Source: a virus. Taken from it: a stretch of 37,737 nt of DNA. The notes beneath the pieces were generated by a model. The model did not search any database and was not told where the DNA came from. It worked only from the letters and a program-made list of their open reading frames with translations. This document shows, one piece after another, positions 13,954 through 37,737 of this stretch. The position numbers were made by a program, and so were the translations under genes. The stretch covers positions 1 to 37,737 of IMG/VR virus record IMGVR_UViG_3300024520_000220. One strand, written 5' to 3'. Positions within the stretch are counted from its first letter, which is position 1, and every line of letters begins with the position of its first letter.

Positions 13954-14367
13954 TTACTCAGCTCCAGCAGCAGTAGCCGAACCGTTAGCCCCAGGATGAG
14001 GATTGATCCGACCAATGTGATCCTGCTCGAGGGTCACAGTCACGTTGCCGGCGACAGTGCCGTCAGCAGCGATACGGGCACGCACATACCGGAAGGGGGC
14101 GTAGAGCGGAAGGACGAACACGTCGTCCGCTTCGGCGCCAACCTGAAGGCTAGAGGCCGACACAACGATGAAGTTGGTGTCGTCCTCGGAACCTTCGATG
14201 ACTACCGCAGCAGCCCCGTCACCTGTGATGTCGGTTGTGACAGTGATCTCAGCAGAGGCCACGTCGAGCGGATAATTGACTTCAACTGAATCGCCGTCGT
14301 CATCCGCAGCAACGCTTTGTGCTGTGTAGAGTGTCGCAGCTTGTGCGTCACGGACTAATGTTCCCAT
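13954..14367 (-). CDS. Small structural protein downstream of the capsid gene, 137 aa
   Basis: The true start is ATG 14367 (MGTLVRDAQAATLYTAQSVA), not farther upstream where the frame runs into the capsid gene. The product is beta-rich: SVEVNYPLDVASAEITVTTD, AAAVVIEGSEDDTNFIVVSA, PFRYVRARIAADGTVAGNVT. It ends in a Gly/Ala/Asn tail with HIGRINPHPGANGSATAAG. A single beta-sandwich of this size immediately after the major capsid gene is a common place for a head decoration or cement protein, which stabilises the shell. No family is certain. It is spaced 10 bases after the capsid stop. Confidence 0.6.
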   Translation of the reverse strand: MGTLVRDAQAATLYTAQSVAADDDGDSVEVNYPLDVASAEITVTTDITGDGAAAVVIEGSEDDTNFIVVSASSLQVGAEADDVFVLPLYAPFRYVRARIAADGTVAGNVTVTLEQDHIGRINPHPGANGSATAAGAE

Positions 14368-14377
14368 GTCAGACCTC

Positions 14378-21482: not shown

Positions 21483-24400
21483 TCAGATGTCCCTCTCAAT
21501 TGGGCCAAACTCGGACGCCCAGTAAATGTTGTACCACGAACCGAAAGACGGTTCTTCCGCAGCCAACGCCACAGCAACTCGACGGATCTCACCAAGAAGG
21601 TCATCAGGATAGAAGTCCTCATCCCCTTCCCCCAAACCGGCCGCCTCCATATCAGAACGGAACTGCTTGACCAGCGGATCGAACGTCCAAACCGCCTGCT
21701 CAACACGGGACAACCCCGCCGGATTGGGTCTATCAACAATCTGCTTCAACTCCGAATCCCGGGCTATACGCTTAGAGACCCACTCGGACCTGGCGGCCAC
21801 CATCGCCGGATACCGCTGCGAAATTTGCCGCTCACGGTTCTTGTACTGGCGTTTGAGGATGATCCTGGATCCTTGCTGACCGGAAAAGCCCGACTCTTTG
21901 GTCCTCATCACCTGATCGAGCGTCATCCCTTGGGACTCGGCGTATCCGCTGAACTGCTCACGGAGCTCGCTGAGCTCCTCCATGCCCCTGTCGATCTCGA
22001 CAGACTTAGAAGTATGGGAAGGGGACGTAGCGACGTTACCTTGATCCTTTAGGGATTCAAGGAGACGTTGAGCCTGCCTGATTGCCGGCACAGCCCTGAA
22101 CATGAGGTCCTCCGCCTGACTGTGCTGTTCTGGTGTTTCCAGCAGCAAAGCCTGCGGTAGGAAGACGTTCGCAATGTCCCGTGCGGCGTCACCCATAGGG
22201 GTGTTGTACGCCACATCCAAGAGGGGACGGTTGATACCCCCCAATTGTCCGGGAGAGAGCCCGTAGGCCAGCGGGTTCAAAGTCCGCAACTCTTTCAGAA
22301 CAGGGAGATGGGCTTCCATCTTCCCCTGTAGATCGAAGTTCTCATCCAACGTCTCATACGCCTTCAACCCGTCATGCAGGATGATAGCCCTCGAAAGGTC
22401 ATCCGTCAAATAGGTGCCCACCTGCGTGGTGAACTTCTTCATGTAGGAGAACGGGAAGAACACGAAGTTTGCTGACAGCTCGGCAGCTGAACGGCCGGCC
22501 CTACCGTAGGAGTATAGGTCCTGAACCTTAGCGGCCGCCTCTTTGAGAGGCATCCCCTGAGAGATAAGGTGGGTAGCAGCCCACGTCTGCCACCTGTGGT
22601 TGGAGAACCCAAGGACACCCTCATCGGTGAACCGTTTCGTTGTAGCTTCCATGAGGTCCGGATTCATCCGGCCCCCGCTAGCATCGTTGAGGGCCGCACC
22701 CATCTGACTCTCGAAAGCTTTCGGGTTGTTCACGTCGATCGACTGCTCGAGAGCGTCCTCCAACACGTCAGTGTTGAACTTCCCCTGCTTCAGCATCTTG
22801 CGGGACTTGGACGGCGAGTAGTTGAACGGCAGATGGAGGGCCCTGTCACCCCAATCTTTCGTGGCCCCCATGACGATAGCCTCAGAGTACCTCTGAGCGT
22901 CGAACCAAGGGTTGATCGTAAACCGGAGAAAGTCTCTGGTCTGCAACATCGAACTCCCCAGACGGGAGTAGTCTCGGCCGCCCAGCTTCCCGCCAGTAGC
23001 TGCCAGAACGGCAGGCTGAGACAGGTCGTAGGCTTTAGCGCCAGCACGGAACATGCCGGGTGTGCCGAAGGCGCCCAAGACGGTGCCAGCGATGATCGCA
23101 CCGGATTGCTGACCGTCATCCTCGGGGGCGATGTTGTTGCCGATAGTGCCACCGACGTAGCCTGTGACACCACGGGCAAGCGTGCGAGTTGAGAACGGAT
23201 TGTAGTCGCCGTACCTCTTCAACGACGCCCCGAAATTGATAGTCTTACTCGACCCGGAAGCCATCAGCTTCTTACCAACAGCACTGCCGGCACCGGGAAT
23301 GGCGGCAGCGCCAGCACCGAACAGAGCACCCTCATACCATTCGCCGCCAAGCCGTTCGCTCATAGCGCCGCCGGCGAGAGCGCCTCCAGCCATAATCGCA
23401 GCCCGTTTAGCGCCAGCGAAATCGTCCCAACCGGTCTTGAATCTTTCGTCGCCCTTCAAGATGGCGGCCATCCGGCCACGCTCAATCGGGTCACGGCCGG
23501 CCTCCGTAGCATCAAAGGTGCGGAGGATCTTCTTTAACATCGGTTGCTCGATCAGGATGTTCTCTATATCCTGCAACCCGTTCTTCTCCCAACCCAGTTT
23601 CCTGGCCTGGATCAGAGAGCCCTTAACGGCCTGCAGGGTTTCGAAATCTAGTTCAGGAAGGAACTTGGCAATGTCCCCCTCTTTGAATCCGTAGTCGAAT
23701 GCGGTGCGAGCTGACATCGACATTTGAAGACGGCCAGTGAACCTACGGGCGATACCCTGAGCGTCCTCCGTGAGAGCCTTCTCCAAGTCATCACGGTTAG
23801 TGCGGACCGCATCGGTCAACTCCCGAAGAAGGGCGTCCGAGTCGTAGACCGTCCAGTTCGGTTTCACTTTCGCCATCTTGTCGGCCATGAGGATCCGGAA
23901 ATTCCGCTCCCTTATCTTCATCTTGTCCAGCTCGGTCATCTTGGAGAAGAACCGGCCGAGGGATCGGCGATTCATCGACGACTGGCGGATCATAGCGAAC
24001 GGCCCGTTCAAGGAACGCATGTCGTTTAAGGAAGTGAAACTGACGCCACGAGCCAGCTTGTACCCACGGGCAGCGAGGAACGCCTCAATGTCCTCAGCCC
24101 CCTTAGATCCAGCTACGAACGCCATCTCCGAAGCAGTCGTCTTTCGCAGCTGCGCCAGAGACTTCTCCAACTCTGCGATGTCTTTGGGCTCTGAGAATTT
24201 CAACTTCTTCACGAAGTCGGAGCCGAGGAGATCCTGCTCCATCTTGGCGACCCAAGCGCCGGGGTCATCCATGTCGCCGCCCGCCTCGTCGATCCAGCGG
24301 AGAGCTTTAACGAACTTGCGCTGCTCCCTATTCGTGCCGGTCAACCCTAGCTCTTTGTATCCCTTCGACGCCATAAATTTGACGACAGAATCGTCAGACC

Positions 24401-27380
24401 AATTAGCGAACCCGGCCTCGACGTCGGCCGGGGAAAGGTCGTCAAAGGTGCCCAGCTCGAAGTCCTCCGCCGCCTGACGGAGCTTCGCCGAATACTGACG
24501 GTACTGAGGGGTAAGAGTGACACGCTCATGTATGCGACGCAACTGGCCGGCAATCAAAGCGATCGCATCCAAATCCTGTTTCACAGGGGTGTCACGACGG
24601 ACAGCCGTCAACGTAGACGACTGCAAGTGAGTGATCGGCTTCCGATACCCGTCAACCATGTGTGAAGGGACGCCCATCTTCTTCGCCCACTTGGGGAGGG
24701 GTAGCTTGCGGATCTCCTCAGAGAGATCCCGCATGAGTGGCTCGGACATGGAGAACCGGCCGTCCTCGAAGGAGAGCTCCCCCATCTCCTCGAGCCTCTT
24801 CTGCATCTCGGGGGAACGCACCGACGCCTGCTGCCCGATGTTCTCAGCAACCGGACGTTGATGGATGTCGTCGAGGCTCAATTGGCCGCTCGACAGTACG
24901 TCGTCGACCTCCATGAACTCGTCCCAATGTTTGAATACGTCGGCGTCACCATCCACCAGATCATCCAGATAGGATGACAGGTGGGTGACATCGTAGTCGG
25001 CGAGGACCTGCTCGAAATGGAACTGACGTTGAGCCTCGTGGTCCTTGATGTGCTTACTCATAGACTCGATAGCGTCGTCCGCTCTCAGGGGGTCGGCGAA
25101 CTGATCGGTGATAGCTTTGATCTCTCGAGCTTTGATCTCTTTGATGTTGACGGCGTTCTGTTCACCCTCGAAGGCTGTGCTAGGTAGCGGATCTTCGCCC
25201 GCTTCCATGCGGGCACGGGAGATCTCTGCACCATCCAGGTCGTCCAGATACTTGTACCCCAAGTCCTCCTCAGCGAAGAGGCGGAACTCGGCAGCGTACT
25301 CGTCAAGTTCAGCCTCTGCCGCATGGCGGGCCTTATCCTTGGTGAGGTACTTTGACGACCCCTTCGTTATTTGCTCTTGCAGCTCCGCCAGCTTACCGTA
25401 GGTGACCCCATGCAGGATCTGTCCACGGGCCGGAGTTATCAAAGCCATCTGTGAGCGGCGCAGCTGGAGGAAGGCTTCCTGATCGTTGTGAACGCCGAGC
25501 AACATCGCCTTTCTCATAGTCGCAGCGTCCACAGCGCCGCCCCCGACCACATACAACATAAACTCGCCGGCCTTCTTCTTGGCGTCGTCAAGCGCCTTAG
25601 GGTTATCCATCTTGACAGCGAACTTCTCGATCTCGGCGGCGTCAGTCAACAGCATAGCTGCGGCCAGCCCACGCTTACCTGGCTCCAACTTGTTTAGGGC
25701 TTGCTGGGCGTCACGGTCAAGCATGCGGGCATGCCACCAGTCAGCAAATCCTCCAGTGAGCTCCTCACGGTTACCGACAGCCCTGAGGTTAGTCTGCATC
25801 GCCTGAGCCTGGTCGGAATACCCTCGAGCGTACTCGAGCCGTCCGACCTGTTTGTCGAACAGGTTCGACGCTTCACCGTATTCGACTGAACGTCGAGCTA
25901 CCCGCCCGACACCCTTGACCGAGTTGGTTATAGTACCCGGCAGGAATATGCGGGACGGCTGGAACATCACTTCCGCAGCCATAGCGATTGCCCCCTGAGG
26001 GGTCAAGGGGTCTATACGCCACTCCCGGGCCGCAGCCTGAGCCTCAGCGGTGCCAGCGCCACGCACTAAACCGTGACCACCTTTACGTTCAGGAAGGATG
26101 AAGGTCTCCACGTTACCGGCCAAACCCAACCGCATGCCGCCACGAGTGGCGAGTTTCGCCTGCTGGACGGAATGAAATTTCCTCCACCCGTCCATACCCT
26201 TGGCGGCAAGCTTGCCGCCAGGAGCACCCCAGCTACCCATCTTTGATGCGCCCATAGCCATGAGCGACTGTTCTTTCATAATGTTCAAACCGGATTGGAC
26301 TGTACCCTCTGCCATGCCCATCGCTCGAGCAACCTTACCGCCACCCGAACCAACCTTACCGAGCATGGTTGCTGAACGGCCCATCTGAGCGAACCGGCCG
26401 GCCGTCACCCCAAGACGGAAACCTACCGCAACCTGACCTACACCTGAGAACAGGAGCGCCGTGTTCAGAACCGGGAAGAGGATGTCGTCAAGGGGCCCTG
26501 TGGCCGCATCAATAAAATCACGGGCTGACGTTGGGTTATCCCACCATGTCCGCCACTTATTGCCCCACTCCTGCGACTCCCTTTGAATCGCAGTGAAGTC
26601 GGGTAGGAAGTCCATTGCCACGGCTGTAGCAATCAGCCCTGACGGTGACAGCCATTTGTCGAACAGGCCCATCATGCCCTGTTCTTCGCCATCAATGTGA
26701 GCTTGACCTACACCGGCAGAGATGGCGCCCGTGCGAGTTCCACCCATCGTCTCGGTCAACTGTTGAGACATCATCTCATAGTTGACCTGCTTATACAGGG
26801 TCGGCGACCAATGCCTAGAATTCAACTGGTCAGCAGTCAGAAGGCCACGTTCGAACGCCTCGTTCTTCCACTGCGTCGGGGCGTCTGCGGAGAACACGCC
26901 CGCTGACTGTTTGCCGCCAAGACCGGCCATCCCACGGCGGACATCGTTCAGTGCGGAGCCAGGAGGTAGGAACCTCTGGCTCTTAAAGTCGTCCGGGGCT
27001 GCTGACCTGCCCTCGGAAATGTTGGTGAGCCCACGGCCCTGATTGGCGAGCACATCGAACGATTGCCCTGGCAACTGGTATTGGAAGTTGGCGAATTGTT
27101 CCTCTTCGGGGTCCATCATCTGACTGTTAGCCAGAGCCCGAACATCGTCCTGCAACCCAAACAGGAACCCCTTTAGGTCGGCCGCCGACGAGAACGCAGG
27201 GTCGATTGCAAGATCGTACCGTACCGGGTCAGGGATAGTTGGGTAGTCCGCTGCGGAATCGACGTCCCGGGTGCCGCTCAACTTCTGATCCAGCCCACCG
27301 AAATCGATGGCGAGGTCCGGGGAGGCCAGGTCTGTGGCAGCCGTATCACCGAACGCAAGGTCAGGGGTCATGGGCATCAT
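21483..27380 (-). CDS. Giant virion protein, 1965 aa
   Basis: This is the longest gene in the window. The ATG at 27380 overlaps the upstream giant gene (ATGA). The N-terminus repeats short Asp/Ala blocks (ATDLASPDLAIDFGGLDQ). Around 245-330 weak hydrophobic stretches occur (LIATAVAMDFLPD, VLNTALLFSGVGQVAVGF). Most of 400-1250 is helical and charged, with many Lys/Glu pairs. Residues about 1325-1450 hold Gly/Ala-rich segments (IMAGGALAGGAMSERLGG, ALFGAGAAAIPGAGSAVG, IIAGTVLGAFGTPGMF) that could insert in a membrane. Further on is an aromatic motif FVFFPFSYMKKFTTQVGTYL near 1635, resembling C-terminal parts of other huge phage proteins I have seen. No catalytic motif is convincing. Giant proteins of this size next to the portal in short-tailed phages are thought to be ejected into the host and may line a DNA channel. 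That role is inference. Confidence 0.6.
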   Translation of the reverse strand: MMPMTPDLAFGDTAATDLASPDLAIDFGGLDQKLSGTRDVDSAADYPTIPDPVRYDLAIDPAFSSAADLKGFLFGLQDDVRALANSQMMDPEEEQFANFQYQLPGQSFDVLANQGRGLTNISEGRSAAPDDFKSQRFLPPGSALNDVRRGMAGLGGKQSAGVFSADAPTQWKNEAFERGLLTADQLNSRHWSPTLYKQVNYEMMSQQLTETMGGTRTGAISAGVGQAHIDGEEQGMMGLFDKWLSPSGLIATAVAMDFLPDFTAIQRESQEWGNKWRTWWDNPTSARDFIDAATGPLDDILFPVLNTALLFSGVGQVAVGFRLGVTAGRFAQMGRSATMLGKVGSGGGKVARAMGMAEGTVQSGLNIMKEQSLMAMGASKMGSWGAPGGKLAAKGMDGWRKFHSVQQAKLATRGGMRLGLAGNVETFILPERKGGHGLVRGAGTAEAQAAAREWRIDPLTPQGAIAMAAEVMFQPSRIFLPGTITNSVKGVGRVARRSVEYGEASNLFDKQVGRLEYARGYSDQAQAMQTNLRAVGNREELTGGFADWWHARMLDRDAQQALNKLEPGKRGLAAAMLLTDAAEIEKFAVKMDNPKALDDAKKKAGEFMLYVVGGGAVDAATMRKAMLLGVHNDQEAFLQLRRSQMALITPARGQILHGVTYGKLAELQEQITKGSSKYLTKDKARHAAEAELDEYAAEFRLFAEEDLGYKYLDDLDGAEISRARMEAGEDPLPSTAFEGEQNAVNIKEIKAREIKAITDQFADPLRADDAIESMSKHIKDHEAQRQFHFEQVLADYDVTHLSSYLDDLVDGDADVFKHWDEFMEVDDVLSSGQLSLDDIHQRPVAENIGQQASVRSPEMQKRLEEMGELSFEDGRFSMSEPLMRDLSEEIRKLPLPKWAKKMGVPSHMVDGYRKPITHLQSSTLTAVRRDTPVKQDLDAIALIAGQLRRIHERVTLTPQYRQYSAKLRQAAEDFELGTFDDLSPADVEAGFANWSDDSVVKFMASKGYKELGLTGTNREQRKFVKALRWIDEAGGDMDDPGAWVAKMEQDLLGSDFVKKLKFSEPKDIAELEKSLAQLRKTTASEMAFVAGSKGAEDIEAFLAARGYKLARGVSFTSLNDMRSLNGPFAMIRQSSMNRRSLGRFFSKMTELDKMKIRERNFRILMADKMAKVKPNWTVYDSDALLRELTDAVRTNRDDLEKALTEDAQGIARRFTGRLQMSMSARTAFDYGFKEGDIAKFLPELDFETLQAVKGSLIQARKLGWEKNGLQDIENILIEQPMLKKILRTFDATEAGRDPIERGRMAAILKGDERFKTGWDDFAGAKRAAIMAGGALAGGAMSERLGGEWYEGALFGAGAAAIPGAGSAVGKKLMASGSSKTINFGASLKRYGDYNPFSTRTLARGVTGYVGGTIGNNIAPEDDGQQSGAIIAGTVLGAFGTPGMFRAGAKAYDLSQPAVLAATGGKLGGRDYSRLGSSMLQTRDFLRFTINPWFDAQRYSEAIVMGATKDWGDRALHLPFNYSPSKSRKMLKQGKFNTDVLEDALEQSIDVNNPKAFESQMGAALNDASGGRMNPDLMEATTKRFTDEGVLGFSNHRWQTWAATHLISQGMPLKEAAAKVQDLYSYGRAGRSAAELSANFVFFPFSYMKKFTTQVGTYLTDDLSRAIILHDGLKAYETLDENFDLQGKMEAHLPVLKELRTLNPLAYGLSPGQLGGINRPLLDVAYNTPMGDAARDIANVFLPQALLLETPEQHSQAEDLMFRAVPAIRQAQRLLESLKDQGNVATSPSHTSKSVEIDRGMEELSELREQFSGYAESQGMTLDQVMRTKESGFSGQQGSRIILKRQYKNRERQISQRYPAMVAARSEWVSKRIARDSELKQIVDRPNPAGLSRVEQAVWTFDPLVKQFRSDMEAAGLGEGDEDFYPDDLLGEIRRVAVALAAEEPSFGSWYNIYWASEFGPIERDI

Positions 27381-30300
27381 TTGCGGGCTACCTTCATTGT
27401 GAATTCAGATCCAATGTGGTCTAGTACGGTGCGGGCTTTCTCGATCAGCCAAACGGGCTGACCTCTCCCCTTATATTTCTTGACGGTCCAAGCGCCGGCA
27501 CCGGAACGCTGCAACCAAATCTTGTCGGTGCCTTCATCGGTTTCCATCGGCAACGGTGCACGCTTCTTGTGCCCCACCTCGACAAGAGGTACACCCTCTT
27601 CCCTGTGGGTGATAATCATCTGGTTGACACGACCCTCGTCGATATCAACATTCTGCTTACTAGAGAAATGGAGGCCCGTCAAACCATGCTGCGGTTCCTT
27701 GTGGACGTGTCCGATGATGTCCTCGTCGACAGTCTTAGCGAACTGGATTTCCGCCATACCGGCCAACATTCCACCACCACCGCCATCAGGTTCGAAGACG
27801 TACCCCTTCACCCCAGGAGTTGTCAAAGGTGATTCCACGTTAGCGAAATACTTGGACAAGGACTCTTGACCGAAGTCCGATCCCACATAGACGGTGAGAC
27901 CGTTCGGGCGGGTCTCATCGATGTTGCCGGTCAACGTCGAGAACTGTTCCTCGCCGTCCCAATATATGAGCTGCTGCGCTTTCTTGAACCCTCGTGGTGC
28001 GCCCGACTCAGGGTCGCCCCACACCAGGATCTCTGGAACCTCGTCGCCGGTCAAATCTGCTAGACGTGTCGAGGCTGGCTTGGAGAACTGCAACGTGTCA
28101 TAGCGTCCCATGGTTTCCCATTCGACAGGTGTCGGTGCGACACGCTGATCGATGAACTTTCCGAGGCCCTGCGAGCTGCGCTTCGAGCCCTTCGACGAGT
28201 CAACCACCTCGACGTTCAACCCTTCCTGACGTGCACGGGCCACCCAGGAATCCATGGCGTCGGTGTTGCCGTCCAGGGGCGCCTGGACCAACAGTTTGGC
28301 GTCATGCTTCCGGGCTAGGTCGGCGGCCTGATCCAGCTTGTGGTAGGCCACCGGAGGCTGGATCCAGTCATCAGCCGTCTCGGCTGAATACTCCACGACC
28401 TTCGCAAGATCTTCCGGCTGGAGGCCACCGTGGTACTGGACCTCGTAGTACCTCTTGGCCGTCGAGTCGGCTGCGCCTGGACGGGGGGCGGAGGCGGCGG
28501 ACAGGGCGGCGTCGTCGGCGCCGGCCAGTGCGTCTACGCCGACAGGGCGCACACCGCCGGGACTTTCGGCAGCCTGGAGACTGTCACCGAAGGTGACGGT
28601 GGCCCTGCCGGCCACCTTCGGCTTCACATGCAGGACGATCTCACCGTAGCCGGCAGTGTCGTTGTGGCTGTAGGCGTCGCCGAGGTACCCGAACACCGGC
28701 CGGTCGGCTGTCGCTGGCACGCCAAGCGCTTCTTCGCCGACCGCCCGACGGGCCGGGTCGGACACGCCACGGGACTTGGCGATGTCCGGCTTGAACCCGT
28801 CGGTCAGAATGCTGTCGGCGTCCTCGAGTGGGACCCGGACACGCATCATGCCAGGGGCATCCGATCCGATCTCCGCCACCCGCTGCGCTTCAGGCTTCGG
28901 TCCAGATCCCGACCCGGTGGCCGTCAAGTCGTAGGGGGAGGCGTCTCGGGGGATCCGGTTGTCCGGTGAGAAGTTCAGGTAGGCGTTCTGCCCTCGAGCC
29001 TCTGATGTCATCGCCGACATGGCGTCGTCGGAGTACAGTTCTGCGTGGAGGGCCCAAGCGAGCTCCTCACCGTGCCGGTTGAAATCGTTCTTCGCAGCGT
29101 AGTGGCCGAAGTAGTCGTGCACCGCCCGGAACATGTCGTTGTGCATCACACCGGTAGAACCCTCGTTCACGAGGTTGTCGCCAAACAGAGAGACATCCAA
29201 CTCGTCTGCCATGAGAGGGTTCATACCTTCCTCGGTCTTGAAGACGTACATGTGGTTGTTCTCGTCGAGGTCCCTAAACAGGGCTTGCATGTTGCCGTAA
29301 GGGTCATCGTCAGTGAACGTCACCCTGACACCATTCCCTTGCACCATCTCCCGCAACTGATCCACGGTGTCTCGGATGAACGAATCGTAAGACAGGCGAA
29401 CCGACTCGTTTGTCACGAACTTGGGGAGACGGCTGTACTCGACAGCGATCTTCTCGCCGATGATCGGGTCAGCCCGGAAGTTCTCCGCAGGGTTCACCTC
29501 AGGTGCGTCAACGCCACGCATGCGGGCGAACGTCTCGTTCGCTTTCCCGCCACCCACCGCAGGTGTCATGAAGTATTCGGAGATCTTCTCGAGGTCGTCC
29601 GCATTCTTCGGGTACACATACAGGTACCGGCGCATCTCGTTGTCGGGTTTAATTTCGAAGTCGTCGATCTTGCTACCCTGCGGTACCGTCCAATGGTCCT
29701 TCCCCTTGTCGTCAACCAGTTTGGTGGACACCCCTTTGTGGGGGTCCATGATCTCCACTTGGACGTCGTACTTCTTCTCGAGGTCGTTACGGATCCGCTG
29801 GATGATCTGCATCTCATCCTGAACCTTGCCGGTGGCCTGACGCTTCAACGGAATCCCCACTTGCACCGCAAGGTTCCCGTCAAGGATCTGCTGTGGTGTG
29901 GTGTTCGGGGTGACCGATCCACCCTGACCGGCGAAGGCGCCCTCAGGGTCGGTGATGTCCCAGGACCTCTGATTCAGATGTTCTTCCACATACCGTACAG
30001 AAGGCATACCGAGTTCGACGGGTGCGGTTGGGCCGTACTGTTGAGCTCCGCCGTCGCCCTCGAAGGTTGGCATGGCGTAGGTGCCACGGGGTGGCGAACC
30101 GTAACCGGCGACGTCGTAGCCGCCATCGGGAAGCATACTGATCTTCACCTGATGCGCCTGATACCCTTTACCCTTCTTGAGGGTTGTCTTCCCGAAGTCG
30201 CCCTTCTTCAACGTCTTCCGCAGGTTGCGCCAATTACTCGCTACAGCCTGGTAGGGGACAAGGCCGGCAGGGTCATCGTTACCGTACAGGGTGTCGATGA

Positions 30301-32488
30301 TCCGCCGGTTCATCACAAGATCCATGCCCTTCTGGCCGAACCCCGCTTTGTTGCCGTGAGGTCGCAGCCAGCCCGGACGGTGGCGCCCGTCAGCGTGGAA
30401 GTTGTCGGTGAAGTTCTCTGCGGTCACCTGAGCGAGGCGACGGTACTCCATCCACGTCACAGCCTGCAACTCTTCAGGTGTGAGAGCTTGACCGCCGGGT
30501 AGCTCGTCTGCTAGTCTCGCAGAGATGCGGGCTGCCGCTACACGGAACCCTTGCGACAGGCCGTCGTAAGCGCCGATAGTGTCGAGGACTTGGTCGGGGT
30601 TCATTGAACCGCCGAACCCAACTTTGAATGCTTGCCTGTCGGAGACCACGGGGAGCCTGCGGCGAAGCTCGTCGCCCGGTACCTTCGAGTAGCCGGTGTC
30701 GCCGACCATCATCTCCGCCATCGTCAAATGGCGTTCCAGGATCTCGTCGTCGACAGAACGGTAGATTGCATCTTCGAATGACGGCTGCTTCAGCCCGGAC
30801 CATTCGTCGGACGTCTTGCGGGAATCGATGAGATCCCGCATAGACTCGCCGGCCTCCCAGCGTTGCCCGATCTCCTTCAATGTCAAACCTTTGTCGCCCG
30901 CTCCACGAGTCCAGAAGTCGGACACCTCGTCAGGGTTGAGAGCTTCGACCAGCATCACACGGACAAGGTCGTCCTCGGACAGCTTCCACCCCTTACCCTT
31001 AATCTGTTCGTGCACATACTTGATGCGGCCGCCCCGGTCAGCTACCTTCGATTTGGCGTATATGCCGGAAGCCGCCAACACGTCTTCCATCATCCTGTTG
31101 GCATCTTTGGTCATCTCGGAGACACGTTGCATCTCCTTGACAGTCTCGGAGCCTTTGGCGACGTTCGTGCGCCAATCTTCACCTGCGGACAGGATCGAAG
31201 CGATCGCCACAGACTTGTGCGGGTGGATCCCCGTCTTCGCTGAATCCTCGAGGAGCTGCTGACGGGCTTTAGGGTACCAGTTGCGCCACCAACGGATCGT
31301 ATCCATCGTCACATGGGTGTCGAAGAACTCTTCCACGTTCATCGAAGACGCCTCAGCCCACCACGACGGATCGTGACGGACAGCGGCAACCATACGTTTC
31401 TGCAATTCGGATTGGCTCATCGACTTGTGCGACATCTTCGGCATACGAAGAACGTCGAGTTCCATCGTTTCCTTGTCGAGGTCGATCTTCCCGACTCTGA
31501 CCAGAGGGGCCAAACGGAGTTCAGGGTGAACGAACGCCTGCGTGAGTTTAGCGTGAGCGACGATACCGTCAGACAGTTTCACCATGTCGTCACTAGGGAG
31601 AGTTTCTCCGCTGCGAGCCTTCTTGAACAGGCCGGCCAGTTCGTCGGCACCCTTACCGGTGAGACGGTCTTCTTTGATGGAGGAGTACATGCGTCCGAGC
31701 TCGTAGGCGAGAGCCCTATGCCCTGCATCCTCCGACCGGTTATACATTGCGGTACCCATCTTGTGTTCGTCGACCTCGTCGACCAGACGTGCCGCCAACC
31801 CCATACCCCAGATCGACATGTGGTCAACCCATTCGCCGTCGATCTCACCCTCGAGAGTGTCAAGGTTCTTGCGGGTCTTGCCCCTAGTGGATCCTACGTC
31901 ACGCCAGCCACGCATCATTTGACCGTAATGGTCTGCGTCGTTGTCGTCGACAACTTGGAGCATCCGATTCACATGGGAGCTCTGCGTGCCGAACTGGACT
32001 TCCGGATCAACCCTTGAACGGTTCAGGACGGCCAGCCGGTTCGACTTCTCGTTGACCGGCCCGTCGCTCAAAGTTGTCAGCGCACGGCGAACTTTTTGGT
32101 CGGACGTGTAGTCGGCGATCTTCCCGGCGAGCGAGCCAATCGAGCCCGGACGTTTCGCCAAAGCATTCATGTGTCGTGACTGCGACACATGGTAGGCGTT
32201 CTGTAACAGACGGTTCTGACGGGTCAACAGGTTGCCTGTTGCCATCACTCCGCCGAGCATCGGTCCACCTATACCGAGGACACGCTGCCACATGGGGACA
32301 GACTCCCCGGCGAACTCGCCAGTGATGGACGCTTGGAGGTCCATGCCCTCACCCAAAGGTGAGAACATTGCTGCCATGTCGGCGCCACGACCGGGTGCAC
32401 CTGACAGCTGTTGACCTATCCCCTGGTCACGGACTTCGTCGATGTCGCCGCCGACGATACCGCCAGCGATGTCCTCTAGGAATCCCAC
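27377..32488 (-). CDS. Giant multidomain virion protein with HDxxGH module and ART-like module, 1703 aa
   Basis: The start is a GTG at 32488 one base after the previous stop (TGACGTG). Regions, in order: a hydrophobic and glycine-rich N-terminus (MGFLEDIAGGIVGGD); long helical stretches to ~700, including GGQALTPEELQAVTWMEYRR near 680-700; a mixed region with TFTDDDPYGNMQALFRDLD; a conserved module at about 1115-1175 with NDMFRAVHDYFGH (H1124, H1129), GEELAWALH (E1141, E1142, H1148) and EARGQN (E1163-N1168); an ADP-ribosyltransferase-like part at about 1210-1400 with GYGEIVLHVKP and YYEVQYHGGL. A basic, glycine-rich C-terminal part follows. The order of accessory enzyme-like modules in one giant phage protein fits the 'polyvalent protein' idea, in which the protein is delivered with the DNA to act early in the host. 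I cannot confirm catalysis for either module. Confidence 0.65.
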   Translation of the reverse strand: MGFLEDIAGGIVGGDIDEVRDQGIGQQLSGAPGRGADMAAMFSPLGEGMDLQASITGEFAGESVPMWQRVLGIGGPMLGGVMATGNLLTRQNRLLQNAYHVSQSRHMNALAKRPGSIGSLAGKIADYTSDQKVRRALTTLSDGPVNEKSNRLAVLNRSRVDPEVQFGTQSSHVNRMLQVVDDNDADHYGQMMRGWRDVGSTRGKTRKNLDTLEGEIDGEWVDHMSIWGMGLAARLVDEVDEHKMGTAMYNRSEDAGHRALAYELGRMYSSIKEDRLTGKGADELAGLFKKARSGETLPSDDMVKLSDGIVAHAKLTQAFVHPELRLAPLVRVGKIDLDKETMELDVLRMPKMSHKSMSQSELQKRMVAAVRHDPSWWAEASSMNVEEFFDTHVTMDTIRWWRNWYPKARQQLLEDSAKTGIHPHKSVAIASILSAGEDWRTNVAKGSETVKEMQRVSEMTKDANRMMEDVLAASGIYAKSKVADRGGRIKYVHEQIKGKGWKLSEDDLVRVMLVEALNPDEVSDFWTRGAGDKGLTLKEIGQRWEAGESMRDLIDSRKTSDEWSGLKQPSFEDAIYRSVDDEILERHLTMAEMMVGDTGYSKVPGDELRRRLPVVSDRQAFKVGFGGSMNPDQVLDTIGAYDGLSQGFRVAAARISARLADELPGGQALTPEELQAVTWMEYRRLAQVTAENFTDNFHADGRHRPGWLRPHGNKAGFGQKGMDLVMNRRIIDTLYGNDDPAGLVPYQAVASNWRNLRKTLKKGDFGKTTLKKGKGYQAHQVKISMLPDGGYDVAGYGSPPRGTYAMPTFEGDGGAQQYGPTAPVELGMPSVRYVEEHLNQRSWDITDPEGAFAGQGGSVTPNTTPQQILDGNLAVQVGIPLKRQATGKVQDEMQIIQRIRNDLEKKYDVQVEIMDPHKGVSTKLVDDKGKDHWTVPQGSKIDDFEIKPDNEMRRYLYVYPKNADDLEKISEYFMTPAVGGGKANETFARMRGVDAPEVNPAENFRADPIIGEKIAVEYSRLPKFVTNESVRLSYDSFIRDTVDQLREMVQGNGVRVTFTDDDPYGNMQALFRDLDENNHMYVFKTEEGMNPLMADELDVSLFGDNLVNEGSTGVMHNDMFRAVHDYFGHYAAKNDFNRHGEELAWALHAELYSDDAMSAMTSEARGQNAYLNFSPDNRIPRDASPYDLTATGSGSGPKPEAQRVAEIGSDAPGMMRVRVPLEDADSILTDGFKPDIAKSRGVSDPARRAVGEEALGVPATADRPVFGYLGDAYSHNDTAGYGEIVLHVKPKVAGRATVTFGDSLQAAESPGGVRPVGVDALAGADDAALSAASAPRPGAADSTAKRYYEVQYHGGLQPEDLAKVVEYSAETADDWIQPPVAYHKLDQAADLARKHDAKLLVQAPLDGNTDAMDSWVARARQEGLNVEVVDSSKGSKRSSQGLGKFIDQRVAPTPVEWETMGRYDTLQFSKPASTRLADLTGDEVPEILVWGDPESGAPRGFKKAQQLIYWDGEEQFSTLTGNIDETRPNGLTVYVGSDFGQESLSKYFANVESPLTTPGVKGYVFEPDGGGGGMLAGMAEIQFAKTVDEDIIGHVHKEPQHGLTGLHFSSKQNVDIDEGRVNQMIITHREEGVPLVEVGHKKRAPLPMETDEGTDKIWLQRSGAGAWTVKKYKGRGQPVWLIEKARTVLDHIGSEFTMKVARK

Positions 32489-32489
32489 G

Positions 32490-32939
32490 TCAGACCTGTG
32501 CTTCTGTTAGGGTCTTCACCCACAGCTGCGCCCACTCCCGGGTCTCATCTGAGACTTGAGGGCTGGTAGCCAGGGCGATCAAAGTTTCTAGCCGCTGCTG
32601 CTGAGCAGACATCTGTGGCTGCTCGAACGACATCGGAGAAGACGCCTGCGTGTTCGCAAGGATGCCCTCTTGGGGGCGTTCCGTTGGGGCCAGCAGCCCT
32701 TCCGGCACACCGGACGGGGCCATAGGTCCGCCGCCACCCAGATTTGGGGGAGGCAACGGTACCTGAGGGCTCCCGCCACCGGGACCGGGAGGCGGTCCAA
32801 CCGGTGCGGGACCCCCGGGGCCCTCAGCCATGGGAGGCAAAGAACCCTTCAGCCTGTCTAAGGCTGCGCCCTCACCATAAGTCCCGGACTCCGGCTTGTT
32901 GACCGGATTCGGGATCTTCTCTATCTCATCTGTGGGCAT
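32490..32939 (-). CDS. Pro/Gly-rich hypothetical protein, 149 aa
   Basis: ATG 32939 overlaps the portal stop (TGATG). The middle is proline- and glycine-rich (GPGGPAPVGPPPGPGGGSP, then VPLPPPNLGGGGPMAPSG), bounded by an N-terminal charged stretch (PTDEIEKIPNPVNKPESG) and a C-terminal helix (MSAQQQRLETLIALATSPQV). It is likely disordered in the centre and helical at the end. The portal C-terminus has a similar Met/Gly/Pro composition, so the two may share an assembly role at the vertex. No family is recognised. A structural or assembly-chaperone function is inferred from position. Confidence 0.55.
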   Translation of the reverse strand: MPTDEIEKIPNPVNKPESGTYGEGAALDRLKGSLPPMAEGPGGPAPVGPPPGPGGGSPQVPLPPPNLGGGGPMAPSGVPEGLLAPTERPQEGILANTQASSPMSFEQPQMSAQQQRLETLIALATSPQVSDETREWAQLWVKTLTEAQV

Positions 32940-34882
32940 CAAGCCGCTCCGTTAGCGGGACCCATAATCTGGGTTCCGATCTTTCCACCGGGACCAGCGT
33001 CGGAACCGAGGCGTGCGAGAATGTCAGGTGCAGGAGGTGCAGGAGGCATAGGCATACCGCCACCCTCAGGGCCACCCATACCGGGAGGTCCACCCATACC
33101 ACCGGGAGGCATAGGCATACCGTCAGGGCCCACCTCCATCGGCATACCCTCCGGACCCATACCGGGCATCAAAGGAGGACCACCGAGGCCAGGATCCATA
33201 GACCCGGCCATCGTCTCTTCCTTCGGCAACACGATGTACTCTTCGTACAGGTCGAACAGGTCGCCGCCATTGCGGCGGGCCTTAGCGATCTCGATGAGAG
33301 CACGTTCAGGGATCGTTGCGGCCTGCAAACCTTCCAACATCTTGGCGAGAGCCATATCCCGGAACTGTTCCACGTCAATCCGTTCACGTTCAGTAGTCAC
33401 ATCGGAGACACCTTCGATGTTCTCCTGGACGAACGACCTTGAAATGAGACCGGCGCCCTGATACTGTAAGTGTAACACGGCGGACTGTGCGGCATCCCTA
33501 CCCAACCCGAGACCGTAATCTGCGTGGATGCGGTGGTTCATGTCGATAGCTTTCGTCGAATACTCTTCAACGAACTGCTGGTTGCGGAGAACACCTGTGA
33601 TCTGCCGGTTACCCGGGTACAGGGCCTTGTCCGTCATAAAGCAGATGCGGAGCGACTGCTCGAGCATGTACTTCATCGTCAGATGGTACTGTTTGATCGC
33701 CGTGTTCATCACGCCGGCTGTGGCTTCAACGAACTTTGCTGAAGCGATAGCCTGATCCACGTCACCGGGACGACTCTTAGGCCAACGCCCACCCATATGC
33801 ACTGCTTCCTGCAATGCTTGGAGGTCTCGCTGCACGTCGAGGCTGGACACTGCGGGCGGTACACGCCCGATCTGGCCGGCAGGGCCGAGCTCAATGTAGG
33901 CGCCACCACCCCAAGGCATAGTTCCGATCAGGTCTTTCACCCAAATATCGGAATACACTGCCTGATCTGCGTAGTCGAGCACGACGCCCATGAGGCGGAC
34001 GTGCGCTGCGAACGGGCCGATCACCTGATCGAACTGTCCACGAGCCTCACCGTCGAAACTGTTACGCTGCCCGATGACAACAGGGCAAACATCCGAAGGG
34101 TTCGTTATCCGCTCAAACTCGACAGCATGCTTCGACACCCCGGAAGTGCGGCCAAGGCCACCAACCTGCCCGGAAGCGCCGGTAGAGGAGAACACGCCCG
34201 CTGTGACCCAGGCTTCCTCATCGAAATACTCGATGAGGGTGACGGTGATGTTGTGATCCCCGGCGATACCCTCTTCAACGTGTAGGCCGTTGCCGTAAAT
34301 GTAGTCACGGAGCAGCATCGACCACTCGACAGGCAGCTGAGATTCGTACAGCTCACGGGCAAAGATGCAGCGGCGAACGACATCACCCTGACGCCATCCT
34401 GGCTCAGGGTAACAGGTCCTCATGTCCCGACGTTCGATCAGAGGAAGTTTCTGATCCGGGTCCGGGAGCACCACCCAAGCTGCGAACCCGCCACCAGCGA
34501 GGTCGAACATCGTTTGGGGGACCATAAGGTCGATCTTCGAGGCGGTCAGGTATCCGGCTGCGATGCGTTCCATCTTGTCAGCGGACTCACGGGCCTTCTT
34601 CGTACCGCCGGCAGGGTCTACACGGACAGAAGGTACCAGAGCGGCAGCCTCAGCGGTGTCCTCGAGGGCCACCTGCACGAGGTTAGGGGAAACAGAATCG
34701 ATACCCTCATCGTCAGGGTCGAACACGGACAGGTCGCCACGCACCACCTTGTCCAAAGTGTCGATACGGTCATCACGGTCGGAGTGTCGGGAGCGGAACG
34801 ACTGCCAGATCTCTACAAGTTCGTCACAATTGATGCCCGGGACCTCATATACGTCGCCGTACTCGTCGACCTTAGCGTGCAT
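32939..34882 (-). CDS. Portal protein, 647 aa
   Basis: The protein lies two genes after TerL, the normal portal position. Its body contains ITxVSPNLVQVALEDTAEAAALVPSV-like content early, then AAWVVLPDPDQKLPLIERRD with the MRTCYPEPGW motif seen in actinophage portals, and helical segments such as LRICFMTDKALYPGNRQITG near the end. The last ~110 residues are very rich in Met, Pro and Gly with repeats of GPEGMPM/GPDGMPM type, an unusual tail for a portal. Twelve copies would form the ring through which DNA enters and leaves the head and on which the adaptor docks. The start overlaps the preceding gene by 11 bases. GAGG lies upstream of ATG 34882. Confidence 0.75.
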   Translation of the reverse strand: MHAKVDEYGDVYEVPGINCDELVEIWQSFRSRHSDRDDRIDTLDKVVRGDLSVFDPDDEGIDSVSPNLVQVALEDTAEAAALVPSVRVDPAGGTKKARESADKMERIAAGYLTASKIDLMVPQTMFDLAGGGFAAWVVLPDPDQKLPLIERRDMRTCYPEPGWRQGDVVRRCIFARELYESQLPVEWSMLLRDYIYGNGLHVEEGIAGDHNITVTLIEYFDEEAWVTAGVFSSTGASGQVGGLGRTSGVSKHAVEFERITNPSDVCPVVIGQRNSFDGEARGQFDQVIGPFAAHVRLMGVVLDYADQAVYSDIWVKDLIGTMPWGGGAYIELGPAGQIGRVPPAVSSLDVQRDLQALQEAVHMGGRWPKSRPGDVDQAIASAKFVEATAGVMNTAIKQYHLTMKYMLEQSLRICFMTDKALYPGNRQITGVLRNQQFVEEYSTKAIDMNHRIHADYGLGLGRDAAQSAVLHLQYQGAGLISRSFVQENIEGVSDVTTERERIDVEQFRDMALAKMLEGLQAATIPERALIEIAKARRNGGDLFDLYEEYIVLPKEETMAGSMDPGLGGPPLMPGMGPEGMPMEVGPDGMPMPPGGMGGPPGMGGPEGGGMPMPPAPPAPDILARLGSDAGPGGKIGTQIMGPANGAA

Positions 34883-35126
34883 CTTCGGCCTCTATGACAA
34901 CCTGTTTCTCGTACTCGTTCATTTCACGGCCCTCTCGGAGTCGAAACCCTGCTGCTCTCACGTCTTCTTCGCCGGCATCCTTAGGCGCATGAAAGTAGAC
35001 TGGTCTGCCGGTCTTGGTGATTACACCACAGACCATCTGCCCCTCAGGACAGTTCGCTTTAGCCGACAGATAGTCGGCCTCGTTAGCGGCTTTCTCAGCT
35101 TCGGTGGGTTCAGGCGCTTCGGACAT
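34872..35126 (-). CDS. Hypothetical protein between TerL and portal, 84 aa
   Basis: I use ATG 35126 rather than the adjacent TTG at 35129, with AGAGG just upstream. The protein is acidic with an N-terminal helix (SEAPEPTEAEKAANEADYLS), a cysteine pair (CPEGQMVCGVITKTGRPVYF) and an end rich in Glu (EMNEYEKQVVIEAEDAR). The CPEGQxVCG part could be a tiny zinc-binding or disulfide-bonded hairpin. No family is recognised. Position between TerL and portal suggests a packaging or portal-assembly accessory. Confidence 0.6.
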   Translation of the reverse strand: MSEAPEPTEAEKAANEADYLSAKANCPEGQMVCGVITKTGRPVYFHAPKDAGEEDVRAAGFRLREGREMNEYEKQVVIEAEDAR

Positions 35127-35132
35127 CAACCT

Positions 35133-37031
35133 CTACCCCGCATCCGGCTGTTCACCCCACACATTGGGGGGTACGTTCACTGGTCGGGGGGCGTTCTTGT
35201 CCGATCCTGTCGCTTCCATCATCGGTTCGCCCGGACGGCCGACCATAGCTCTGGCAAGGGATCCAGAGCGTGCCTGCTTGCCCCTATGCTGGTTGCCGAG
35301 ACCCGGTTGAGAGATCATGTCTTCAGCGAAAGAAACCAGTGACCGTCTACGCCTGATACGGGCCGGATATTTGTCCGCCCTGTCATCAAACATGGGCAGA
35401 TGGGGCCGCTCGAGCGCCTCCTTCATAGCGATATGGGTGAACCAGAACGACATCACCCTGTCCGAGGTGACCGCCATAGGGAACCCGAGGAGCTCCTCCA
35501 CGAACGGCTGAAACGCCCGCTGCGTAGGAGCGTTACCCCACGGAATGGAGATCAGCTGCGCCTCGAACAGCGGTGCGATAGATTCGACACCGAACTGAGG
35601 GTCCCACTTGTTCCTATGAGTCGTATGAGGCACAACACGCACCCCATGCTGGGCCAGTTCCTTCACGATCTCCGGGGTTTGCACGATCTGCGCCTGAACG
35701 CCGTTCACCTCGACCCTGAACTCCGACAACGGGTACTCCTGCGCCCAATCGAGCATCTGCTGCTTCATACGGGGCGCCTTCATCTGCCGCTCCGCCACCT
35801 GATCGATCAGATACCGGATACCCGTCTGAAGGTCCACACCCACAAGGGTGAGGGCCGTGAAACCGCTGTTCTTCCCCGTACCAGCCGGATCCAAGCCCGC
35901 AATCAGCTTCCAATTCGGATTGTACTGGCCCAACACCCGCTGAGTGTCCTTACACAGATCGATAGACTCCTCAGTGAACGACGCCCCCTCACCCGGCGAG
36001 TCGACATTCTGGAAGACCAGCTGGAAGTCGGCGTTCTTCATTTCGGTGCGGTGAGTCAAAGCCTGAGTGTACGGGAAATGCTCAGGCCACAACACCTTCT
36101 CCTCCACGTCATCCAAGATCAACGACTTGCGTATCACCCGATACCCCTGCCGCTTCTGCAACGTCGCATAAATGTCACCGGGCATCACACGGGTCCCAAC
36201 CCACACAGCTTTGCCCCTCTTACCGATACGGGTCAAGGCCTCCTTATCGAACCACTCCATCATCCCCGCCACACGGTCCGGGTTCTTCTGATTGTCGATA
36301 GTAGCGACGTCATCGAAGATGATCCAGTCAGCACGGGCACCATACACCTGCTCGCCCACACCCAAAGCCCTCACAGAAGGGTCCTTCTCCATCGTCGTCC
36401 GCTTCGCCACGTTGAACTGGGTCGCAGACCAAATCTGATCCTTACCACCCGAACGGAACGGACCGAAATCGTCGATCAGGTTCCCCTCAGCCCCGACATA
36501 CAGATCCTCGTTCGTCATCAACTCCTGAATGGCACGGGAGAACGCCCGGGCCATAGTCGCAGACTTCGACACGATCAGAAAACGCAGATTCGGGTCATAA
36601 CACAACTGATACAACGTCCACTTCACCGTAATCAAAGTCGACTTCGCATGATACGGCGGCAAGTTCACCAGAATCCTGGCAAGACCCTCCTCCAAGGCAT
36701 CCACAATCTCCTCATGGAACGGAGGCGCCGCATGGCGCTCCTGACAATCCGGACACAACACATGCCCGAAATACCTTCGCTCCCACTCCCAAAACGGCAT
36801 ACGGGTTTCACCCGTCACCCCCTCCGCCGGCGCCTTAGAACGGATCCCCTCAACCCGAACAGCCTCAGCCTCCCGGAACAACTTCACCTTCCCCGACAAA
36901 TGCTGCCGAGACACCCCCACCCTCTTCGCCACCTCAGACTGCGTAAACCCCTCATGCACCACAAGACGACACGCCTCATCAAACCTACGAGTCTTCGACC
37001 ACTTCTCAAATTTACGATCCATACTACCCAT
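35133..37031 (-). CDS. Terminase large subunit (TerL) with N-terminal HTH
   Basis: I place the start at ATG 37031 (MGSMDRKFEKWSKTRR); ATG 37022 is also possible, and the longer frame to 37115 is less likely. Residues ~10-55 look like a helix-turn-helix (EGFTQSEVAKRVGVSRQHLS), a type usual in separate small subunits. The ATPase follows: Walker A LPPYHAKST (Lys130) and Walker B WIIFDDV (D239, D240). The nuclease starts at about 378 with IAGLDPAGTGK (Asp381) and continues with FRVEVNGVQAQ and DDRADKYPAR. TerL packages and cuts viral DNA at the portal. No separate small-terminase gene is seen in the window, so the N-terminal HTH may take its DNA-recognition role, or the small subunit lies outside. 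It is the first gene of the minus-strand operon. Confidence 0.85.
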   Translation of the reverse strand: MGSMDRKFEKWSKTRRFDEACRLVVHEGFTQSEVAKRVGVSRQHLSGKVKLFREAEAVRVEGIRSKAPAEGVTGETRMPFWEWERRYFGHVLCPDCQERHAAPPFHEEIVDALEEGLARILVNLPPYHAKSTLITVKWTLYQLCYDPNLRFLIVSKSATMARAFSRAIQELMTNEDLYVGAEGNLIDDFGPFRSGGKDQIWSATQFNVAKRTTMEKDPSVRALGVGEQVYGARADWIIFDDVATIDNQKNPDRVAGMMEWFDKEALTRIGKRGKAVWVGTRVMPGDIYATLQKRQGYRVIRKSLILDDVEEKVLWPEHFPYTQALTHRTEMKNADFQLVFQNVDSPGEGASFTEESIDLCKDTQRVLGQYNPNWKLIAGLDPAGTGKNSGFTALTLVGVDLQTGIRYLIDQVAERQMKAPRMKQQMLDWAQEYPLSEFRVEVNGVQAQIVQTPEIVKELAQHGVRVVPHTTHRNKWDPQFGVESIAPLFEAQLISIPWGNAPTQRAFQPFVEELLGFPMAVTSDRVMSFWFTHIAMKEALERPHLPMFDDRADKYPARIRRRRSLVSFAEDMISQPGLGNQHRGKQARSGSLARAMVGRPGEPMMEATGSDKNAPRPVNVPPNVWGEQPDAG

Positions 37032-37167
37032 AACCCCACATGCGGTCGAGAAACTTCTAGCACTCCCGCAGGTGTGGCGGCTATCCTCAGGGTAGGCTGT
37101 TCCCGTCACGACCACTATTGGGGTAGTAGATAGGACCTGTTCCTCGCCGGCTTGCGACCGGTTGCTG

Positions 37168-37219
37168 CCCGTCAGAGGGGTCGTCTTCTGCTACCACCGA
37201 TCAGGTAGCCCCGTCAGAG
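37168..37219. repeat. Short direct repeat CCCGTCAGAG and a GCTACC/GGTAGC inverted repeat
   Basis: CCCGTCAGAG occurs at 37168-37177 and at 37210-37219. Between them GCTACC and GGTAGC form a six-base inverted repeat with an eight-base loop (near 37190-37209). An operator or leader structure upstream of TerL is a possibility, but the elements are short. Confidence 0.4.
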
Positions 37220-37308
37220 CCATCGGGGGAGCGTAGCACGAGATCCCGAGCGATACAGGGGGGCGGTACCCGGGCTTCCTGTCTACAGACATCCAACGTC
37301 CGCCAGCT

Positions 37309-37329
37309 GGAGCCCCACCAGGGGGCTCC
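37309..37329. repeat. Inverted repeat, perfect 8-bp stem GGAGCCCC/GGGGCTCC
   Basis: GGAGCCCC at 37309-37316 and GGGGCTCC at 37322-37329 pair perfectly around a five-base loop. No T-run follows on either strand. It could be a leader hairpin for the minus-strand operon or a U-less terminator for transcripts from the right. Confidence 0.6.
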
Positions 37330-37355
37330 GAGCTAGGGACAGCCCAAACGTATGG

Positions 37356-37370
37356 CCCACCTACGGTGGG
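37356..37370. repeat. Inverted repeat CCCACC/GGTGGG, flanked by CTAGG/CCTAG
   Basis: CCCACC (37356-37361) and GGTGGG (37365-37370) form a six-base stem with a TAC loop. Outside it, CTAGG at 37333-37337 and CCTAG at 37373-37377 can pair, making a larger structure of about 45 bases. Operator-like or RNA-structure roles fit. Confidence 0.5.
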
Positions 37371-37529
37371 AACCTAGACAAACCGGGTTTAAGACGGAAA
37401 CCGACAAGCCAACAAGACAGCAACCCGACAGACGTCCAGGAACACCCATGTCACAATGTCACCCACACCCTAAGCTACCCCTCCGTATAGCAGCATGACT
37501 GCGTTTTATGGACCCCCCCTTCGGAGAGT

Positions 37530-37547
37530 GTGCATGCAGGCATGCAC
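37530..37547. repeat. Near-perfect palindrome GTGCATGC/GCATGCAC
   Basis: GTGCATGC (37530-37537) and GCATGCAC (37540-37547) are 8-base arms separated by two bases. It is followed directly by C-then-G runs that are themselves palindromic. It lies at the beginning of the compositionally distinct end region. Confidence 0.6.
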
Positions 37548-37576
37548 CCCCCCGGGGGGCCCTGCTGCGGCCAGCT

Positions 37577-37603
37577 TGCTCGACGAGCTGGCGCCGTCGA
37601 GCA
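37577..37603. repeat. Inverted repeat, perfect 9-bp stem TGCTCGACG/CGTCGAGCA
   Basis: TGCTCGACG (37577-37585) pairs perfectly with CGTCGAGCA (37595-37603) around a nine-base loop. The strong stem lies inside the terminal region with unusual composition. Confidence 0.6.
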
Positions 37604-37737
37604 GTCCGGGTGGCAGGGGTCCAGCAGCTGGCCCCCGCCCGCTGCCAGCCATGCCATGGGGGTACCAGCATGCTTGCAGCAGGCAGCACACATACATATA
37701 TAGGCAGCGATCAGCCTTCGGTGTGTGTCGGGTGGTG

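Follow-up and report, generated by a model that had tools for sequence, protein, structure and literature searches.

A conserved N-terminal helix-turn-helix domain on a T7-related terminase large subunit and its possible part in DNA recognition

It is unsettled how a packaging motor selects its own DNA; a 2022 review (PMC9611059) calls DNA binding by the small terminase subunit (TerS) elusive and counts no TerS-DNA structure at that date. If the motor itself carried the recognition domain, the system would be simpler, and the locus analyzed here raises the question of whether such a motor exists. It belongs to a stretch of viral DNA of 37,737 nucleotides (IMG/VR record IMGVR_UViG_3300024520_000220), called the window throughout. 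A sequence-only reading of this stretch had noticed a helix-turn-helix (HTH) at the N-terminus of the terminase large subunit (TerL), described it as being of the TerS kind, seen no TerS gene beside it, and suggested a fusion through which the motor could recognize the packaging site.

The terL gene product and its N-terminal domain

terL is encoded on the minus strand, with its stop at 35133, ATG starts at 37031 or 37022, and a frame open from GTG 37115 (660 codons). The plus-strand reading of 35133-37031 as a gene was discarded, being interrupted by a stop. The protein and its parts map as follows.

35133-37022, minus strand: TerL (terminase large subunit), 629 aa from ATG 37022 (632 aa from ATG 37031)
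36834-36995, minus strand: N-terminal HTH domain, spanning residues 10-63, its third helix beginning at residue 39, seen in Pfam HTH matches, AlphaFold models and 70 of 71 members
36804-36833, minus strand: linker, probably flexible, residues 64-73, with pLDDT values below 50 at residues 64-71
36123-36737, minus strand: ATPase motor, about residues 96-300, with PPYHAKST and IIFDD, which we take to be the Walker A and Walker B regions
35409-35909, minus strand: RNase-H-like nuclease, about residues 372-538, Terminase_6C match at an E-value of 0.0032, below the cut-off

Profile and structure searches relate the protein to the T7 motor. In a PHROG scan it gives a T7-type profile match, to phrog_38, over residues 66-548 (E-value 6.6e-80). 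Against NCBIfam NF033889 it scores 108 bits (E-value 5.2e-31) and does not reach the equivalog cut-off of 150 bits; by this sequence score it is a relative of that equivalog, not a member. Searching the PDB with a profile of 36 relatives recovered T7 gp19 (4bij, E-value 2.9e-12) and also the PhiV-1 terminase, which is the best Foldseek match for the predicted model (8dgc_E, E-value 1.7e-21). The ATPase region aligns to T7 gp19 in hhalign (E-value 2e-13), and N120, H125, K127, S128, D237 and D238 are invariant in the 36 aligned sequences. For the nuclease region, Foldseek returned fold matches to the nuclease domains of P22 and RB49.

The HTH that had been read from the N-terminal peptide EGFTQSEVAKRVGVSRQHLS (residues 24-43 of the 629-aa form, about 36953-36894, minus strand) is present. 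Pfam HTH matches of TerL all fall below the curated cut-offs, the domain alone matching HTH_3 with an E-value of 0.00026 among the best 25 of 45 families listed. The structure prediction that had been proposed for this region was made with AlphaFold from 36 sequences, and it places the HTH in helices 10-24, 28-35 and 39-63. Mean pLDDT values over 10-residue segments are 91-93 for residues 11-50 and 80 for residues 51-60, and the model of the isolated N-terminal domain agrees with that of full-length TerL.

Conservation was assessed in a set of 71 members, comprising 66 viral loci with an intact N-terminus (from 84 loci), the window, three Streptomyces phages and ct2KA10. For each member, a profile was built solely from members less than 60% identical to it, and recovery was scored at E < 1e-3. 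The domain was recovered in 70 of the 71 full-length members, the exception being L033 at an E-value of 0.0014. In this comparison, E-values were 190 for T7 gp19 and 160 for Sf6 gp2, neither of which shows the domain, and a weak 0.014 for P2 gpP. With such conservation, a chance origin of the HTH is untenable, and TerL is confirmed to carry a genuine, conserved N-terminal domain predicted to be of the DNA-binding type.

Resemblance to TerS and to other HTH proteins

The description of the HTH as being of the TerS kind stands for the distant relatives and does not extend to the window's own domain. When 45 N-termini were compared with PHROGs at E-values up to 0.1, the three families matched most often, among the best 25 of 75 listed, were all TerS: phrog_4044 (30/45, best E-value 2.8e-9), phrog_1482 (24/45) and phrog_4102 (22/45). 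Pfam Sf6_terminase matched 10 of the 45 (best 25 of 45 families listed), and phrog_1482 includes Sf6 gp1 (E-value 1.8e-68). Sf6 gp1 is itself among the PDB profile matches, at an E-value of 0.025, behind a designed repeat protein, a Tet repressor and a DNA invertase. In hhalign, the distant-clade N-terminal profile aligns to Sf6 gp1 with an E-value of 1.1e-4, while the window-clade HTH gives 0.44, which is no usable similarity. At the level of sequence profiles, a likeness of the TerL N-terminal domain to TerS DNA-binding domains is supported for the distant half of the clade.

The window HTH is less distinctive. Among the best 25 of 75 PHROG families listed, a sigma factor family comes first (E-value 0.0012) and the TerS family phrog_7344 third (0.0029). 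Structural comparison gave no Foldseek match at E-values up to 0.001 and Z-scores of at most 5.8, the weak fold matches including DeoR, ArdK, KorA, sigma region 4 and homeodomains. No terminase appears by name among the structural matches listed; 2ao9 (phage protein phBC6A51), which is presumably TerS-like, stands in row 44 with an E-value of 0.61. Matching of the predicted model therefore neither backs nor rules out a relation to TerS. Direct tblastn searches of phage records with the window HTH returned 14 records at E-values up to 1 (best 0.09), which where annotated are immunity repressors or a transcriptional regulator, and the HTH of a distant member had no match at E-values up to 0.1.

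Comparison of the two halves of the clade with each other is sensitive to the linker. With untrimmed profiles, hhalign relates the window-clade and distant-clade HTHs at 92.5% (E-value 4.9e-7). Once linker columns were removed, the E-value was 7.3e-5, compared with 1.8e-5 against a sigma-region-4 control and 1.7e-6 against an HTH protein of the relative G009. Proven homology of the two HTHs was rejected, as the trimmed score falls to the level of the sigma-factor control, and for the same reason we claim a shared architecture and not a shared descent of the HTH. By sequence, the window's own HTH is generic, and a TerS ancestry for it is hypothetical.

This generic character bears on whether the HTH serves packaging at all. 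The domain could instead act in transcription or autoregulation at the interval that separates terL from the divergent early genes, or be a protein-interaction module; the window-clade HTH is nearest to repressor and sigma domains in both sequence and fold, and a gene-poor stretch does lie between terL and early genes that run the other way. However, the attachment of the domain to the packaging motor is fixed in 70 of 71 members and its identity in the distant clade is TerS-like, and we regard such a function outside packaging as very improbable.

The suggested TerS-TerL fusion survives in part. A DNA-binding-type domain does sit on TerL and no TerS was found beside it or, with the families tried, in relatives, but no TerS oligomerization core is seen in the window TerL, which is probably not a whole-TerS fusion. 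TerS profile matches to TerL frames stop at positions 59-84 of profiles 106-180 long, and beyond the HTH the AlphaFold monomer model has a single long helix (39-63) and then the linker.

Search for a separate small subunit

That no TerS adjoins TerL holds within the range covered. Downstream lies a gene of 84-85 aa, and upstream no gene is called up to the window's end. Inspection of the flank just outside, as had been proposed, was possible through L001, a second record of this virus, identical to the window at 8280 of 8294 overlapping bases, that reaches 3397 bp further. Of 24 chosen ORFs (8 from L001, 16 from the window), which gave 10 PHROG families, none was assigned to TerS, so no stand-alone gene was found in the extra 3.4 kb. 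The likely genes of the extension, taken from the ORF list, are divergent from terL, and the gene caller named one weak same-strand frame of 67 aa, 1.5 kb off. An early protein of 165 aa in this record (L001 472-969, minus strand) has a C-terminal HTH-like stretch, KKDIAAELGVHPSRVSQH, and no PHROG match at 0.01.

Relatives were searched in the same spirit. In G006 (47,143 bp, with an end overlap of about 98 bp), 30 of 45 called genes fell into 19 Pfam families at E-values up to 0.01, and in Manuel 36 of 63 coding sequences fell into 11, with no TerS in either. PF11123, PF05944 and PF20901 found no stand-alone gene in 19 clade records, while the controls T7 gp18, P2 gpM and Sf6 gp1 were recovered. 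For PF11123, the gp18-type TerS, the count is 0 of 19, one of them being the incomplete window record, against 5.4e-16 for the T7 control. Within the clade records, PF20901 matches only the three Streptomyces phages and ct2KA10, in each case inside the TerL frame. Matches to phrog_4044 occur in 11 of the 19 records, always inside the TerL frame alone, and are absent from the window, L001, three close relatives and the three Streptomyces phages. With phrog_1482, the profile scan hit the TerL frame of nine clade records; one further, weak match in the window at 14330-14449 (plus strand, E-value 0.009) was taken as chance, the frame having an internal stop and lying opposite the head-gene region. 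The HTH domain profile found the TerL frame in all 19 records and made two extra matches, one to a plausible gene of about 99 aa in G009 (E-value 2.7e-6) and one, weak and with an internal stop, in G013. Terminase_2 (PF03592) had no match in the window and none in 28 records at E-values up to 1, and Manuel, RosePharie and Immanuel3 carry no TerS annotation.

TerS is poorly conserved and easily missed, and an ordinary TerS might lie elsewhere, either in the unseen part of the genome or as an unrecognized early protein, such as one with a sigma-region-4-like HTH, leaving the TerL HTH as an accessory. The window and L001 together cover about 41.1 kb; near-complete records of the clade span about 39-47 kb and those of close relatives 44-47 kb, so about 4 kb of the window virus is perhaps, indeed probably, unseen. 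The early-region candidate is the only other HTH-family match among the scanned window proteins.

4393-4680, plus strand: sigma-70 region-4-like HTH protein, 95 aa, early region, rival TerS candidate, Sigma70_r4_2 match at 7e-06

Its G006 relative touches the TerS family phrog_7344 at 6e-05, behind five better families of which three are for transcription (best 25 of 36 families listed), and the sigma-like protein thus scores higher to transcription families. The G009 gene recovered above, a second HTH gene in that genome (L103 about 4360-4660, G009 about 44,360-44,660), is the sole plausible stand-alone gene found with the TerL N-terminal profile. Against a TerS elsewhere, the families tried found no stand-alone gene in the complete-looking G006, G024, Manuel, RosePharie and Immanuel3, and we consider this explanation unlikely.

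The genes beside terL include another candidate.

34872-35126, minus strand: small gene of 84-85 aa that comes right after terL, candidate packaging partner, window clade only
32939-34882, minus strand: probable portal, next large late-operon gene, placed by position, with a weak match to phrog_332 'head-tail adaptor' (E-value 0.0005)

The small gene, between terL and the probable portal, encodes 76-89 aa across relatives, and tblastn found it in 30 loci (27 distinct records), all of the window clade. It has no PHROG or NCBIfam match. Its pattern is CG..GxPVYF...GRxMS, and the G006 copy weakly matches DUF1757 (E-value 0.00065). The probable portal has no Pfam match; Manuel also has a portal near terL. 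A 150-aa gene, coiled-coil-like by eye at its C-terminus, overlaps the terL start in three loci only, by tblastn (L016 1230-1682, L015 9549-9995 and L021 5268-5717). A simple caller applied to 51 loci called an upstream gene in 30 and none in 21; a same-strand gene lies less than 400 bp upstream in three of them (L016, L028 and L042) and at 413 bp in L043. The absence of a called gene is weak evidence, because in L015 and L021 the caller overlooked the 150-aa gene that tblastn later found.

Other late-region genes of the clade deserve mention in their own right. Two adjacent late proteins of 1965 and 1703 aa (window 21483-27380 and 27377-32488, minus strand) have counterparts by size and position in G004 and G006 and are probably internal virion or ejection proteins. 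A virion-region protein of 851 aa (window 10896-13451, minus strand), possibly a surface-polysaccharide-modifying tail protein, contains FIPGGGFQSHN ... CGHSAGGYLALM, which we take to be an alpha/beta-hydrolase (esterase-like) motif. The structural operon of G006 includes a protein of 80 aa (L097 6370-6612), adjacent to the capsid gene when the contig ends are joined, that is taken as a Fer4_15 ferredoxin match (E-value 4.5e-16).

The main rival to recognition by TerL itself is a division of labor like that in phage P2, where TerL would keep its HTH and a separate, HTH-less small subunit, for instance the 76-89 aa downstream gene or the 150-aa overlapping gene, would form the TerS ring and select DNA jointly with it. 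An HTH on TerL does not imply loss of TerS, because P2 gpP has an HTH (Terminase_5 at residues 12-69) and P2 also has the TerS gpM. A TerS without an HTH is reported for RcGTA (PMC6854486). The spread of the small gene through the window-clade loci and the overlapping gene in L015, L016 and L021 provide partners of this kind. On the other side, tblastn at E-values up to 0.001 finds nothing that matches the small gene among distant-clade loci or in the phage records searched, its product has no similarity to T7 gp18, Sf6 gp1 or P2 gpM (hhalign E-values of 0.08 or worse), and the 150-aa gene was matched in no more than its three loci. We find this arrangement rather doubtful.

Genome ends, proposed mechanism and known systems

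If the HTH of TerL recognizes DNA for packaging, the sequence just upstream of its own gene is the plausible place.

37023-37737, no strand: region without a called gene upstream of terL, putative packaging-recognition site and genome ends, proposed from the contig-end excess and the relatives' repeats

The gene-free region extends about 270 bp more in L001. It does contain mechanical ORFs of up to 175 aa, and the one at the window's end has no Pfam or PHROG match. Exact direct terminal repeats are found in Manuel (276 bp), RosePharie (266 bp) and Immanuel3 (275 bp), where terL starts 384-403 bp inside the left repeat, and end repeats are also present in G006 and G024; the window record, which is incomplete, has no direct end repeats. 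Of the 27 contigs at least 20 kb long, 12 have an end in the 2.5 kb upstream of terL, compared with 2.2 expected (P about 3e-7 if the contigs were independent; they are partly related, and the threshold was set after inspection). Genome termini would be a natural cause of this excess, and a hypervariable region or an assembly problem an alternative one. The window runs for 715 bp upstream of terL before it ends, and L001 reads through. Upstream of terL in the window virus, no direct or inverted repeat of at least 14 nt was found (L001 3080-4112), nor any sigma-70-like promoter or terminator. On this analysis, the region is a plausible, putative binding region for the HTH.

We propose, with a probability of roughly one half, that the window encodes a T7-related TerL with a built-in HTH on a short, probably flexible linker, an architecture constant throughout a broad phage clade, and that this HTH does the DNA-recognition part of the TerS job, likely just upstream of terL. 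One or several TerL subunits would bind the concatemer junction through their HTH, most likely within the gene-poor stretch that immediately precedes terL, and this contact would bring the motor and nuclease to where the cut yields direct terminal repeats. DNA binding by the HTH, the site and independence from another subunit are the steps that we infer. The computed elements are the domain, its conservation and predicted fold, the result that no TerS was found in relatives by the families tried, and the terminal repeats beside terL in the Streptomyces relatives. Recognition by TerL would also explain why TerS annotation is absent from such genomes.

A broader version would apply to the whole clade. 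The TerS ring would have been lost and its DNA-binding domain joined to TerL, so that a single-protein terminase recognizes the terminal-repeat junction beside its own gene, with the HTH later diverged or swapped in the window branch. We put this forward tentatively, as possible and short of probable.

Open-access text returned no papers for the phrase 'TerS-TerL fusion', and none of the titles and abstract openings listed from an open-access library describes a clade with an HTH-bearing TerL and no detectable TerS. A TerL with an HTH is already known from P2; its combination with the lack of a detectable TerS in a clade was not met in the open-access literature surveyed.

Among characterized phages, the closest solved motor relatives of the window TerL are T7 gp19 and the PhiV-1 terminase. 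Unlike it, gp19 shows no N-terminal HTH, and T7 has the TerS gp18, a family not found in the 19 clade records. T7 has terminal repeats. P2 gpP shares an N-terminal HTH on TerL (Pfam Terminase_5, PF06056, E-value 2.3e-27) and differs in several respects: P2 has the separate TerS gpM and a cohesive end, gpP matches Terminase_6N/6C above the cut-off, and the window TerL has no PF06056 match at E-values up to 1. The DNA-binding region of the TerS Sf6 gp1 (Sf6_terminase, phrog_1482) resembles the distant-clade TerL N-terminus; Sf6 gp1 is a separate protein with an oligomerization core.

The nearest parallel is the TerL of the Beephvirinae, represented by the Streptomyces phages Manuel, RosePharie and Immanuel3, which is 28-29% identical overall to the window TerL. 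It likewise has an HTH before the ATPase, with comparable spacing between the two, and in these phages too TerS annotation is lacking and a portal gene lies close by. The Beephvirinae differ in that their HTH is TerS-like (phrog_1482 4.9e-5 to 1.7e-4; PF20901 9.4e-4 to 0.004), whereas that of the window is generic, and in an endolysin gene between TerL and portal. The sole clade relative for which a description of morphology was found, Abafar, is presented as a podovirus (PMC11536984). Relatives with the same architecture exist as cultured Streptomyces phages.
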